Shown: positions 25,661 through 56,800 of the stretch, in pieces
Numbering within the stretch: position 1 is the first letter of the stretch
Layout of the letters: each line of letters opens with the position of its first letter
Program-made: the position numbers and the translations under genes
Notes under the pieces: model-generated
What the model saw: the letters and a program-made list of their open reading frames with translations, nothing else
The model's database searches: none
Told to the model about the DNA's origin: nothing
Assembly: GCF_014698845.1 (NCBI RefSeq)
Contig: NZ_JACJTV010000008.1
Location: 62,001-126,000 of the forward strand
DNA: 64,000 nucleotides
Source: Coleofasciculus sp. FACHB-1120
GTDB lineage: Bacteria > Cyanobacteriota > Cyanobacteriia > Cyanobacteriales > FACHB-T130
Direction: 5' to 3'

Positions 25661-28600
25661 ATGGACGAAAATAACCAGTCAATTAAGCATGATTATTTAC
25701 AAGATAAAGATGCTTCTGGAAAGTTGCAACAACCTATCTCAGATGCAGATGTAGAACGTCGCCACCTTGAAGAAGAACTGGGTAGAACCAGGGCGGAACT
25801 AGAGGCATATCGAACACTCTACGAAAATACTCCCTGTATCCATTTTACGTTAGATGCGCTAGGAGTTGTTCTTGGAGTCAATCAGTTTGGCGCTGCCCGT
25901 CTCGGTTATAGCGTCCCAGAGTTGATTGGAAAAACAATTTTTAGCACTTTTGCGCCTGACGACGAAGAAAGGTTAAAAGCAGAGTTTACTCAGTTTTTGC
26001 AACAAGCAACTCAAGAAGATTTTGATTTTAATTCAACAACCGAATCGAACGCTTTCGTTACTCATTGGGAGTGGCAAGCCATCTGTAAGGACGGCAGCAT
26101 TTTCTGGGCAAATGTTAGTGCGAGCATTGTACAAAGAGTTAATACGAATGTAGCTGTCGTCTTGGTTTGCAATGATATAACTGAGCGGAAACGGGCACAG
26201 GAACGCCTACATTTATTGGAGCAGGTTCTCCGTGATTGCTGCAATAGCATTGTCATTACCGACTCCAATCAACCAGATAATCCAATTATTTATGTCAATC
26301 CAAGTTTTGAGCGTTTAACAGGCTACTCTGCTGAGGAAGCTGTAGGGCAAAACTGCCGCTTCTTGCAGGGTTCTGAAACTGCTCAGCCAGAACTCGATGA
26401 GCTACGAGTGGCAATTAGCGAGGCTAGAGAATGTTATGTCACCTTACGAAACTATCGCAAAGATGGCACCCTTTTCTGGAATGAACTTTATCTTTCCCCA
26501 ATAGGAAATCCCCAAGGGACTTTAATCGGTTTTGTGGGGATTCAGACGGATATTACTGAGCGAAAACAGGCAGAAGAGGCACTACGCAAAAGCGAAGCGA
26601 ACATTCGCGCTCTTTTAACTGCCATTCCGGATTTAATCTTCCGAATTAGCAAAGATGGCACTTATTTAGACTTCAAAGCGGCAAGAGACTTTGATACATT
26701 CTTACCTGCTCAGGAATTTATAGGTAAAAAGATAGACGAGGTTTTGCCCATAGAGGTCGCTGAGACAGCCAGATACCATGTGGAGCAAGCACTTTCTACG
26801 AACGAAATCCAAATCTTCGAGTATCAGCTACCCAAAAATGGTACTTTGCAAGATTACGAGGCGCGGCTCGTTGTCACCGGAGAAAATGAAGTTTTAGTCA
26901 TTGTGCGCGACATTCGCGATCGCAAAGCCGCTGAAGAGTCACTGAGGCAGCAAACTGAGCGGGAGCGGCTGCTGAGGGCGATGCTAGAACGCATCCGTCA
27001 GTCTTTAAATCTGGAGGAGATTCTCAACACGACGGTGTCTGAAGTCCGGCAATTTCTCGCCTCCGACCGAGTGATCGTTTTCCGCTTTCAGCCAGACTGG
27101 AGTGGCGTCGTAGCAGTGGAGTCAGTTGCTAATGGTTGGACTCCGCTCCTAGGAACCACAATCCAAGATCCTTGCTTTCAGGAAAGCTATGTCCAGCTCT
27201 ATAAACAGGGTCGCACTAAAGCCATAGAAGATATTTATACAGCCGAGTTGAGTCAGTGTCACATCGATTTACTACATCGGCTTCAAATTAGAGCCAGCTT
27301 GATCGTGCCGATTCTCCAGGGAGAGGAATTGTGGGGACTGTTAATTGCCCATAATTGTTCGCAACCCCGACAGTGGCAGCAACTAGAAATTGATTTGCTT
27401 TGTTCCTTGGCAACCCAGGTAGCGATCGCAATTCAGCAAGCCGAACTGTACAACCAAATGCAACAGCAAGCTCAGCGCGAGCAAGCGCTGAATCGGTTTA
27501 CTTGTGCAATTCGTAGCTCTCTAGAATTAGAGGTAATTTTTGCCACAGCAGCAGCGGAAATCGGTCAACTTTTGCATATCGACCATGTTTCTATCCTGGA
27601 ATATCTTCCGCAACGGCAAGTCTGGCTGAATGTAGGAGAGTACCATCAATCTCCTAGTTTGTTGAGCGGTCTAGGGATGGAAATTCCAGATGTAGACAAT
27701 TTGTTGGGAAGGCAACTCAAGCAGTTTCAAGTGGTTTCTATTCCCGATACTCAGACTATCGAAGATGAGGTGAATAAGCCTCTCGCAGAGGCTAATCCGG
27801 GTGCTTGGTTGTTGGTGCCGCTCCACTTTCAAGGGAACCTCTGGGGAAGCTTAACGCTGTCAATGGAAGGTCGTCCTCGCTACTGGCAAGACTCAGAGGT
27901 GGAGCTGGTGTCTGCCTTCGCGGCTCAACTTGCGATCGCTATTGGACAATCCGTCCTGTTTAAGCAGGTGCAGCAGCTGAATGCCAATTTAGAACGCCAA
28001 GTGCAACAACGGACAACCCAACTGCAAAAAGCGCTTGGCTTTGAAGCGGTTCTAAAACGCATCACCGACAAAGTCCGCGATAGTCTCGACGAACGCCAGA
28101 TTTTACAGGTAGCCGTTCGGGAGTTAGCGCTTTCATTTAATATGGGCAGCTGTCATGCTTCCCTCTACAACTTGGAGCAAGAAACTGCCACAATTTCCTA
28201 CGAGTACACCACCTCAATGCCTTCCTCTCAGGGTCGGTTGATGGAAATGACAGCCTTCCCAGAAATTTATGCTCCTCTGCGGCAAGGTAAATGTTTCCAA
28301 TCTTGTTCAATCAGTCCCGACTTTGTCCGAAGTAAGGTGGCAATGTTGGCTTGTCCGATATTGGACGATCAGGGAGTGCTGGGGGATCTGTGGTTATTCC
28401 ACCGCCCAGACTACACCTTCAAAAAGCTAGAGATCCGGCTGGTGCAACAAGTCGCGAATCAATGCGCGATCGCAATTCGTCAAGCCCGATTTTATCAAGC
28501 ATCCCTGGCACAAGTGCAGGAACTAGAAAAACTCAATCGGCTCAAAGATGAATTTCTCAGTACCGTTTCTCACGAATTACGTTCGCCCGTATCCAACATG

Positions 28601-29266
28601 AAAATGGCAACTCAGATGTTGGAAATCACCCTAAAGCGAGAGGGGATCTTAGATGCCAAAATCGCAAAACCCCCGACAGAGGTCAGCAAAGTTAGTCTCT
28701 ACTTGCAGATATTGCAGAAGGAATGCAAACGTGAAACTGACTTAATTAACGATCTGCTGGATTTGCAACGCCTAGAGGCAGGGACACGACCCTTGGATTT
28801 AAACGTAATCGAACTTCATACCTGGTTGCCCCAGATTGTAAAACCTTTTCAAGAGCGTGCCCAAAACCGCCAACAACTCTTGCAGGTTGACATCCCCTCC
28901 CCATTACCTGAATTCGTCTCCGATTCATCTAGTTTGGAACGCATCCTCGCGGAGTTGCTCAACAATGCTTGTAAATACACACCCCCCGGAGAAAAGATTG
29001 CTCTTACCGCCGAAGCAAAAGCAGGAACGCTCCAATTGAGTGTCAAGAATTCCGGTGCTGAAATTCCCCAGAGCGAGCTAACCCGCATTTTTGATAAATT
29101 TTACCGCGTTCCCAATGCTGACCCCTGGAAGCAGGGTGGAACTGGCTTAGGGCTGGCACTGGTAAAGAAACTAACAGAGCATTTGGGAGGCGAAATTTGG
29201 GTTGAGAGTGGGTCGGGTCAAACCGGCTTTATCGTAGAGTTCCCGATTAATTTTGCCTATGCTTGA
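25661..29266 (+). CDS. Multi-sensor histidine kinase with LOV-type PAS and DXCF cyanobacteriochrome GAF
   Basis: 1201 residues, soluble. In order: coiled region (30-50), PAS1 (52-175), PAS2 (188-300), PAS3 (312-425), GAF1 (445-595), GAF2 (610-765), coiled coil (768-792), GAF3 (795-945), HisKA (phospho-acceptor His971 in STVSHELRSP) and HATPase (about 1085-1195, with N and G boxes). PAS2 carries GQNCRFLQ, the flavin-adduct motif of LOV domains (Cys232). GAF1 carries DPCF at 503-506 and CH at 533-534, the two cysteine sites of DXCF cyanobacteriochromes, which bind a bilin. So it may read two light colours. No receiver domain is present; its partner regulator is unknown. It is a single gene in AT-rich surroundings. 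Confidence 0.92.
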   Translation: MDENNQSIKHDYLQDKDASGKLQQPISDADVERRHLEEELGRTRAELEAYRTLYENTPCIHFTLDALGVVLGVNQFGAARLGYSVPELIGKTIFSTFAPDDEERLKAEFTQFLQQATQEDFDFNSTTESNAFVTHWEWQAICKDGSIFWANVSASIVQRVNTNVAVVLVCNDITERKRAQERLHLLEQVLRDCCNSIVITDSNQPDNPIIYVNPSFERLTGYSAEEAVGQNCRFLQGSETAQPELDELRVAISEARECYVTLRNYRKDGTLFWNELYLSPIGNPQGTLIGFVGIQTDITERKQAEEALRKSEANIRALLTAIPDLIFRISKDGTYLDFKAARDFDTFLPAQEFIGKKIDEVLPIEVAETARYHVEQALSTNEIQIFEYQLPKNGTLQDYEARLVVTGENEVLVIVRDIRDRKAAEESLRQQTERERLLRAMLERIRQSLNLEEILNTTVSEVRQFLASDRVIVFRFQPDWSGVVAVESVANGWTPLLGTTIQDPCFQESYVQLYKQGRTKAIEDIYTAELSQCHIDLLHRLQIRASLIVPILQGEELWGLLIAHNCSQPRQWQQLEIDLLCSLATQVAIAIQQAELYNQMQQQAQREQALNRFTCAIRSSLELEVIFATAAAEIGQLLHIDHVSILEYLPQRQVWLNVGEYHQSPSLLSGLGMEIPDVDNLLGRQLKQFQVVSIPDTQTIEDEVNKPLAEANPGAWLLVPLHFQGNLWGSLTLSMEGRPRYWQDSEVELVSAFAAQLAIAIGQSVLFKQVQQLNANLERQVQQRTTQLQKALGFEAVLKRITDKVRDSLDERQILQVAVRELALSFNMGSCHASLYNLEQETATISYEYTTSMPSSQGRLMEMTAFPEIYAPLRQGKCFQSCSISPDFVRSKVAMLACPILDDQGVLGDLWLFHRPDYTFKKLEIRLVQQVANQCAIAIRQARFYQASLAQVQELEKLNRLKDEFLSTVSHELRSPVSNMKMATQMLEITLKREGILDAKIAKPPTEVSKVSLYLQILQKECKRETDLINDLLDLQRLEAGTRPLDLNVIELHTWLPQIVKPFQERAQNRQQLLQVDIPSPLPEFVSDSSSLERILAELLNNACKYTPPGEKIALTAEAKAGTLQLSVKNSGAEIPQSELTRIFDKFYRVPNADPWKQGGTGLGLALVKKLTEHLGGEIWVESGSGQTGFIVEFPINFAYA

Positions 29267-53828: not shown

Positions 53829-56800
53829 TTATACATTTTCCATGCCCCAAAATGATTGGGGTTTTGTAAAACTTGAGGCGAAACCATTAAAATCTGTGGT
53901 AAGTTGCTGTGCTGTAACAATTAGTTCTTCTGCTGCATTTTGAGTTAAAGGTTTAGCGAAAAAATATCCTTGCCCATATTCGCATTCCATTTCTCTCAGT
54001 TGGGAAAGTTGCTCGGCTGTCTCTATCCCTTCTGCTGTCACATTTAACTCTAAAGTATGAGCCAGGGTCACGATAGCGCGAACAATTTCTAAACTGTCGT
54101 CTTTTGCTCCCATTCGGCTAACAAAAGAACGGTCAATTTTTAACTGATCGATGGGAAACCGATGTAGATAACTTAAAGATGAATAGCCAGTGCCGAAATC
54201 ATCAATATGCAGATGCACGCCCAAAGATTTTAATTGGAAAAGCATCTTAATTGCCGATTCGGCGTTATCCATGACTGCACTTTCAGTAATTTCTAATTTT
54301 AAACTTCGCGCATCTAGGCGAGTGTCCCGTAAAATTTGGTCGATTTGCTTGACTAAATCTGGTTGTAAAAACTGTTTGCTGGAAAGATTAACACTGATTG
54401 TTAATAGTAATTCTGGAGAGATTTGCTGCCAATCATGCATTTGGTAGCACGCTTTGCAGAGTACCCACAGTCCGATGGGAACGATTAAACCTGTTTCTTC
54501 GGCAATTGGAATAAATTCCGATGGAGAGATTAAACCGCGCTCTGGATGATGCCAGCGTACAAGCGCCTCGAAACCGTCCAGTCTGCCTGTTGTCAAAGAC
54601 ACAATGGGTTGATAGTGAAGCTGAAATTCATGCCGCTCGATCGCACGCCGCAAGTCGTTTTCCAGTTGTAAAAGTGCCACGGCGCGGGTGTGCATGGTGG
54701 TATCAAAGACTTCATGACGCGCTCTTCCCATCGATTTAGCACGATACATAGCGGTGTCAGCATCGCGCAGGAGATTTTCTGGACAGTCATATCCGATTTC
54801 CGGGGCGCTTTGCGAACCACCCCCGATGGCAATGCCGATGCTTGCCGTCGTGAATACCTCTTGCTCATTGAGGTTGAAAGGATGCATCAGTTCTAAGTGG
54901 ATGCGCTCGGCAATGTCAGTGGCGTTGTTGATATTTTTGATATCGTCGAGCAGGATAGTAAACTCATCTCCGCCTAGCCGTGCGACTGTATCGCCACCCC
55001 GCAGGCAAGTTTTCAACCGCTGCGCGATCGCTATCAGCAATTGATCGCCAATCATGTGTCCCAAGCTGTCATTAATCACCTTGAAGCGGTCAATATCGAT
55101 AAAGAGGACGGCAAAGAAATAGTCATTGGTTCGTTTTGAACGTTCTATTGCCTGTCCCAATCGATCCATAAACAAGGCTCGATTTGGCAAACCAGTCAAC
55201 ACGTCATGAAACGCATCATGGAGGAGTTGTTTCTCAACTTGCTTGCGCTCGGTGATATCAGTTTGAGAGCCAGCCATGCGCGAGGCTTTCCCATTCGCGT
55301 CTCGTACAGCCATCCCCCGAATGAGCATCCAACGGTAGGTCCCGTCTTTGTGTAAGATGCGATGTTCGTTCTCAAAATGGGGGGTCAGTCCTTCGAGATG
55401 TAAAGAAATCTGCCCTTTTAACCGCTCTATATCCTCAGAATGAACTCGCTCAAACCAAGCATTGGGAATCTTGTTAATTTCGTTCTCCTCAAAGCCCAGC
55501 ATCGATTTCCATCGGGGAGAAAAATAAATTTCGTTTGTTTTTAAATTCCAGTCCCAAAGTCCATCGTTAGCACCAGAAACGGCGAGTTCGTAACGTTCTT
55601 GACTCTCACGCAATGCTTCCTGAGTTTGGGCAGCCGCAAGGGCTGCCTTGACGCGCTCGGTAATATCTTGGAAGGTAACAACTGCACCCACCATCTGACC
55701 ATTTTCTCGAATAGGGGTGCTGATGTACTCAACGGGAAAACTTGTGCCGTCTTTTCGCCAAAAGACTTCTTCATCTACTTGTTGAACTTTGCCATCCTGA
55801 AAGGCTGCATAAATTGGACACGCTTCTCGCGGATAGGGAGCGCCATCAGATTTTGAATGATGGCAGATAAAATGTAAGGGTTTGCCAATAAGTTCTTCGA
55901 CTTCCCATCCCAGCATTCTCGCAGCAGCTGGATTGACAAAGGTGGCATTTCCATGAACATCCAAACCATAAATTCCTTCACCCGCTGAGTTGAGAATTAG
56001 TTCGTTTTGGTGGCGCAGTCGTTCAATTGCCTCTTCGGTTTGCTTGCGAACCGTGATGTCGTTCTGCAACCCGATGAAGTTGATGAGTTTCCCTTCGTTA
56101 TCAAAAACTGGGTTGATGGTGAGTTCATTCCAGAACGGTGTCCCATCTTTGCAGTAGTTCAGCACTACACAAATAATAGGTTGCTTTGATGCGATCGCTT
56201 CTCGCATCACTTTCACAACAGAGGAATCGGTGTCTTTCCCTTGTAGGAAGCGGCAATTGCGACCCATCACTTCCGCTGCTGAGTAGCCAGTGATGGCAGT
56301 AAAAGCAGGATTGACAAAGATAATTGGATTGTCAGGTAAAGTTGGATCGGTGATCGTCACTCCAGTTGTCAGGTTAGCGATCGCCGCCGCTAGCTGGCTG
56401 TTTTCGCGCATGGCTGACCGCAAGGCTTCTTCTGCCTGCTTGCGTTTGGTAATATCGGCAGCCAAACCATCGATTCGGATGACATTCCCATTCGCATCAC
56501 GCCCTAGATGAGCGCGATTGCGAACCCAACGTTCTTCCCCGTCCGGTCGGAAAATGCGATACTCTTCGTCTGCTGCACCGACTTGGAGTAACGCTTGCAT
56601 CATCGCTTCTATTCGTTCTCGATCGTCTGGGTGAATCACCTCCAGCCAGAGGTTCGGGCGCTCAAAGAACTGAGAGACTGGACGACCATAAATTTCCGCC
56701 GCCGCCGGACTGATGTAAATCGGCTCCCCGGTAGTGGCTGAAACCGACCACACGCTGTCTTCGAGCGAGCCAAGAATATTCTCCAGCCGCGATTCACTCT

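Follow-up and report, generated by a model that had tools for sequence, protein, structure and literature searches.

LOV kinases and cyanobacteriochrome (CBCR) kinases are each well known, and several solved proteins approach parts of the gene described here. This gene lies at 25661..29266 on the forward strand of the window, a 64,000-nucleotide stretch of the Coleofasciculus sp. FACHB-1120 genome, and encodes a histidine kinase that, by homology, carries both a LOV domain and a DXCF-type CBCR GAF domain (GAF1). In the Brucella abortus LOV-PAS histidine kinase (6ph4, 6pps), a LOV domain is followed by PAS and kinase domains, as in the window protein, and both entries match its LOV domain by sequence and its LOV-PAS part in a fold search. 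The constructs, as titled, are without a bilin GAF, whereas the window protein has three GAF domains (GAF1-GAF3) between its third PAS domain (PAS3) and the kinase. TePixJ and other DXCF CBCRs resemble GAF1 in their aligned cysteine motifs and close predicted fold; however, the PDB names TePixJ as a methyl-accepting chemotaxis protein, whereas GAF1 of the window resides in a kinase with a LOV domain upstream. The closest solved relative of GAF1 is the GAF domain of a multi-sensor kinase, the "dual sensor histidine kinase" (6oap, 6oaq, 6ob8), presumably PPHK (Shin et al. 2019). The 6oap sequence has D-x-Y-F where GAF1 has D-P-C-F, and so lacks the DXCF cysteine.

Other proteins combine two kinds of photosensor. 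Neochromes pair a phytochrome with LOV, not LOV with a CBCR, and the second input of PPHK is reportedly a phosphorylation signal rather than LOV. The pertinent part of PMC9614035 describes neochromes, Ppr of R. centenum, and CBCR arrays as several photosensors in one chain, and that of PMC11879098 describes dualchrome as two photosensor kinds in one polypeptide. Neochromes, Ppr, and dualchrome are like the window protein in this respect, but Ppr joins PYP to a bacteriophytochrome and dualchrome joins a cryptochrome to a phytochrome; neither is a LOV-CBCR protein. LOV and bilin-GAF photoreceptors are, according to a passage of PMC4844311 that concerns organisms, those most often co-present in one bacterium. 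A LOV-CBCR fusion is not mentioned in the relevant passages of PMC9614035 and PMC4844311, and we found no description of a natural LOV-CBCR kinase in the open-access literature, although the main surveys fall outside that search and may list the pairing. The pairing seems to be one of known modules with a known output, recurrent and undescribed.

Domains of the window kinase

The gene is one intact open reading frame (ORF) of 1201 aa, with an ATG start and zero internal stops. Pfam families assigned to the protein include PAS, GAF (three stretches), HisKA, and HATPase_c, giving the order, from N to C terminus, PAS1 - LOV - PAS3 - GAF1(DXCF) - GAF2 - GAF3 - HisKA - HATPase. The features, all on the forward strand, are as follows.

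25661..29266, +, whole gene, multi-sensor histidine kinase, 1201 aa (single ORF; Pfam)
25781..26200, +, PAS1, aa about 41-180, without the LOV cysteine (Pfam PAS stretches)
26210..26587, +, LOV domain, aa 184-309 (LOV profile 185.3 bits; solved LOV relatives)
26354..26356, +, Cys232 codon in GQNCRFLQ, predicted flavin adduct site (motif position)
26585..26950, +, PAS3, aa about 309-430, between both sensors (sequence; segment comparison)
26960..27457, +, GAF1, DXCF-type CBCR GAF, aa 434-599 (GAF1 profile 273.7 bits; PDB CBCR matches)
27167..27178, +, DPCF second-cysteine motif, aa 503-506 (aligned on DPCF of TePixJ)
27257..27262, +, Cys533-His534, predicted bilin-attachment Cys and its His (aligned on CH of TePixJ)
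27476..27967, +, GAF2, aa 606-769, without CBCR cysteines (profile alignment)
28043..28498, +, GAF3, aa 795-946, without CBCR cysteines (profile alignment)
28544..28783, +, HisKA, aa 962-1041, H-box SHELRSP at 970 (His971) (Pfam E 2.1e-12)
28922..29245, +, HATPase_c, aa 1088-1195 (Pfam E 1e-24; NNACKYTP, IFDKFYR, GGTGLGLAL)

The LOV domain is supported by motifs and by its solved relatives. The GQNCRFLQ motif with Cys232 (aa 229-236) and the LOV-typical FWNELYL strand (aa 272-278), both read in the second PAS by the initial annotation, are present as described. Residues 181-318 match solved LOV proteins, with 8c05 the best (E 1.6e-35) and ungapped across 125 residues in the alignment; the YtvA structure 2pr5 matches the same stretch (E 2e-32), and the NCBIfam model YtvA_fam covers aa 185-322 with a score under the model's own cut-off. 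The NYRKDG, FWN, and GIQ segments align with those of solved LOV proteins. Aligned to a profile of its relatives, the LOV domain has N,C,Q,N,N,Q at the six key positions, a set identical in 95 of the 105 cysteine-bearing LOV domains from loci L164-L283. The Asn and Gln residues of the flavin mononucleotide pocket, whose loss had been named in advance as grounds for abandoning the LOV call, are intact. The PAS1 part of the frame has zero LOV-profile matches at E 1e-15. Elsewhere in the window, a second LOV domain, with GRNCRFLQ, lies at 56025-56381 on the reverse strand in a 1128-aa frame without a CBCR GAF of at least 150 bits.

GAF1 is a CBCR GAF by sequence and by predicted fold. Its closest solved relatives are the CBCR GAFs of 6oap (best, E 6.3e-60), miRFP670nano, and TePixJ. 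Both cysteine sites proposed from the letters alone, DPCF at aa 503-506 and LSQCHIDLL at aa 530-538 (Cys533-His534), align on TePixJ (3vv4, E 1.1e-41), DPCF on DPCF and QCH on ECH. The eight CBCR positions tested in GAF1 read D, D-C-F, C-H, H, and W. The predicted GAF1 fold is close to those of 4glq, the blue form of TePixJ (Z 24.2, root-mean-square deviation 2.1, 149 aligned), and 6mgh (Z 25.2); the rows of that fold search mainly cover GAF1 (247-422 of the model), so LOV is not tested by them. The matches to solved LOV and CBCR proteins show that the two sets of motifs are not chance. The other two GAF domains have zero Cys at either CBCR position, as had been claimed. The 11 Pfam families listed for the protein do not include PHY, making GAF1 by homology a stand-alone CBCR GAF without PHY; a neochrome-type PAS-GAF-PHY phytochrome module was not found, given a Pfam scan without PHY and the CBCR type of GAF1.

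Going by family matches, the host genome holds the enzymes to make bilin, encoded elsewhere than in the window gene: a bilin reductase (PF05996, E 1.1e-79) and a heme oxygenase (PF01126, E 3.1e-91), both above cut-off. On contig C13 of the same genome, a 1808-aa frame (L112, L121-L128) contains a series of CBCR-like GAFs, nearly identical to one another, whose motifs, DYF and CH, are red/green-like; the last GAF of the series is DXCL.

At the output end, the HisKA H-box and the N-box, F-box-like, and G2 motifs of HATPase_c are present. Among the eight neighbouring frames scanned, none belongs to a response regulator family. The same-genus orthologue (G001) is 88% identical overall and keeps both motif sets. 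Comparison with this orthologue gives dN/dS values of 0.24 for LOV, 0.10 for GAF1, and 0.08 for the kinase, with 0.27 for PAS1, 0.24 for PAS3, 0.23 for GAF2, and 0.10 for GAF3. LOV, GAF1, and the kinase are under purifying selection.

Recurrence of the LOV-DXCF pairing

The LOV search covered the host genome and 59 others, nearly all from the same order; 120 loci were fetched and their frames read. The genome and locus sets behind all the pairing counts given here are not random samples. A LOV match at 1e-31 occurs in 41 of the 60 genomes, and 104 frames from the 120 loci have a LOV domain with its cysteine. A CBCR-like GAF of at least 150 bits, GAFs scoring lower being excluded from the pairing count, accompanies LOV in 29 of these 104 frames. 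Both GAF cysteines are present in 24 and the full DXCF motif in 22, the latter spread over 12 of the 60 genomes; the other five of the 29 have lost one or both GAF cysteines. The host genome contributes four full hybrids (contigs C8, C27, C38, and C45), as does its congener, and the hybrids differ in output and in the PAS between the sensors. The initial annotation had implied that the combination is rare, a view that gives way before 22 pairings in 104 frames. That the window gene is a unique oddity is ruled out by this count within the order, together with three further frames in its own genome.

Outside the order, 14 of 69 listed LOV rows were chosen, partly for similar frames or presence in a second search. 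Five of these 14 loci have full DXCF, a single genus accounting for four and another family for the fifth; at one more locus the first GAF cysteine has been lost. Two 106-genome searches shared two frames outside the order, in G142 and G120; the GAF of the former (L286) lost the first cysteine, and that of the latter (L287) is full DXCF.

Co-occurrence within the host genome was compared with chance across the 92 frames having a PF01590 match, frames being separated by contig and length. A GAF with both cysteines occurs in four of seven frames with a cysteine-bearing LOV versus seven of 85 others (Fisher p 0.0034). One of those eleven frames reads ExCF; dropping it gives p 0.0022, and adding the DXCL frame of C13 gives p 0.0049. 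The support is weak because paralogous frames are not independent.

The hybrid on C45 is an 829-aa frame (L167) with a compact LOV-PAS-GAF(DXCF)-kinase order. Its close relatives, 796-825 aa long, occur in G001, G002, G005, G030, G025, and G051; bench work would be simpler on this hybrid than on the window protein. When its LOV-PAS-GAF part was searched against 291 genomes of the class, only the host genome matched, a result that we do not read as absence because the 1e-115 limit was too strict and six candidates per genome were scored. At 80 loci from a named-genome scan driven by the kinase end and other patterns, a simple motif search found zero LOV-DXCF frames. The relatives of the window gene in the scan of named genomes are overwhelmingly cyanobacterial, and in a plasmid search none of the matches listed spans 80% of the query. 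A further frame of the host genome, L171 (3802-6369 of that locus, reverse strand; contig C21), encodes an 856-aa LOV-PAS-GAF kinase with the LOV motif GRDCCFLQ, and L281 is its counterpart in the congener. The GAF of L171 and L281 looks to be eroding, with SxCF, CQ replacing CH, and an insertion.

Origin of the pairing

In a GAF tree of 68 rows, the window GAF1 and its orthologue group with frames L139 and L140, which are LOV-free in the sense that their contigs have no LOV match at 1e-31. Of the 28 LOV-joined rows, 22 fall in a separate main clade of 27 rows. A single clade of 25 LOV-joined GAF rows, a test that omitted the L254 and L267 rows as another GAF type, is rejected (p 2.8e-4; p 4e-5 without L191). 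The LOV-free rows in the main clade could be losses, however, and these alone would be able to cause the rejection. A fairer test, in which the window pair and the whole 27-row main clade are taken as one, is not rejected (approximately unbiased p 0.107), and the forks behind the separate placement of the window fusion have support of 80-98 in the Shimodaira-Hasegawa-like approximate likelihood-ratio test. Resolution of the LOV tree (104 rows, 124 columns) is poor, with 44 of 101 inner branches open.

The segments between LOV and GAF differ as well. Among 29 such segments, PAS3 strongly matches only those of the same-genus orthologue (3.7e-69) and L209 (2.5e-25); a second PAS type is strongly matched in ten, and six are without PAS. 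Together, the GAF tree and the different PAS3 favour the view that the window fusion arose independently, but do not prove it.

A sibling kinase in Kastovskya adunca (L009) has no LOV domain. It is 78% identical to the window protein in GAF1, 57% in the GAF3-kinase end, and 35% over 1-325, which takes in PAS1 and the non-LOV PAS standing in LOV's place; GxNCRFLQ is absent. L139 may be the same protein as L009, given equal frame length and GAF identity. The comparison fits a LOV domain gained or lost through a swap of the middle sensory part. A contig titled as a Woesearchaeota metagenome-assembled genome (L024) has a frame that shares 57% identity with the GAF3-kinase end; the contig is possibly misbinned cyanobacterial DNA.

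Proposed function and alternatives

The window protein is probably a dual-chromophore photoreceptor histidine kinase, soluble-looking, that joins a flavin and a bilin photocycle. The earlier proposal that one protein could bind both chromophores stands as far as motifs, pockets, and bilin genes go; binding itself we infer, as we do the colours, dimer, kinase activity, logic, and partner regulator. In DXCF CBCRs, the dark state absorbs blue light because of the second Cys link, and the photoproduct absorbs at longer wavelength. Judging from the two families, blue light should drive both LOV and the DXCF GAF, with thermal decay resetting LOV and longer-wavelength light resetting the GAF. In the mechanism that we propose, LOV would bind flavin, form the Cys232 adduct in blue light, and decay in the dark. 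GAF1 would bind bilin via Cys533, with Cys505 of DPCF as a second, light-breakable link, and would pass from a blue-absorbing dark state to a longer-wavelength photoproduct (green, teal, or orange), with phycocyanobilin and phycoviolobilin as the candidate bilins. Both sensors would feed one dimeric kinase through a shared helix chain, LOV - PAS3 - GAF1 - GAF2 - GAF3. Blue light would then switch both, while darkness would reset mainly LOV and green-side light mainly GAF1. Given these differing resets, the kinase could sense the intensity of blue light together with the blue:green ratio. The part of PMC6798134 that bears on this question argues that tandem PAS and GAF domains with regular spacing are joined by signal-integrating coiled coils, and cites the engineered LOV-PAS kinase YHF as combining two inputs. 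By analogy only, this portion of the paper supports integration along a shared spine here.

Several observations weigh against a working dual photoreceptor. Confidence in the modelled LOV domain is middling (block means 52-77). The dN/dS of LOV is not below that of PAS3 or GAF2, and selection therefore does not single out LOV. In three same-family genomes (L184, L187, and L189), both cysteines are gone from the CBCR-like GAF that directly follows LOV, and the GAF beside LOV has lost one cysteine in L254 and L267; such losses indicate that LOV-GAF kinases can lose one sensor. Finally, the G1-box reads KNSGAE, with Asn where Asp is usual, as in four relatives. This Asn weakens the textbook ATPase-box match, not the Pfam family assignment, and active CusS-like kinases with Asn in the G1-box are known.

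The cysteine losses also bear on an alternative in which only one sensor is used, the protein being either a DXCF CBCR kinase with a photoactive but uncoupled LOV domain or a LOV kinase whose GAF1 is passive. The Kastovskya adunca kinase, which keeps GAF1 and the output with a non-LOV PAS replacing LOV, implies that the output can work without LOV, and constraint is tighter on GAF1 than on LOV (0.10 vs 0.24). However, the window protein and its same-genus orthologue both retain every residue tested in LOV and in GAF1, and within the host genome LOV is found in one frame with a DXCF-type GAF at a higher rate than expected. We regard use of a single sensor as unlikely, though deserving of real weight. 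Much the same standing belongs to the idea that domain shuffling in a PAS/GAF-rich genome brought the two sensors together by chance, without shared function. The 6.2-Mb host genome has 130 PF01590 matches, hybrids differ in the inter-sensor PAS, which six of the 29 segments lack, and sibling kinases swap middle domains; the host-genome co-occurrence speaks against shuffling, if weakly, and purifying selection keeps both ends. Redox sensing through flavin occurs in some LOV and PAS domains, but a LOV domain reading redox or flavin state instead of light is very improbable here: the window protein and its orthologue both keep the adduct Cys and the full GxNCRFLQ motif, neither of which would be required for a purely redox role.

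Beyond the dual photoreceptor itself, we tentatively suggest, as a possibility that we doubt more than we favour, that LOV and DXCF domains were joined several times independently in cyanobacteria because they make a useful circuit, in which the same blue start and different resets (dark versus green-side) would let one kinase separate intensity from colour. A natural kinase with both sensors would offer a test case for how tandem sensors share an output, and would be a possible optogenetic part with two resets. With hybrids that vary in linking PAS and in output (24 frames with both GAF cysteines), a rule by which the two signals are integrated could be tested by comparison.

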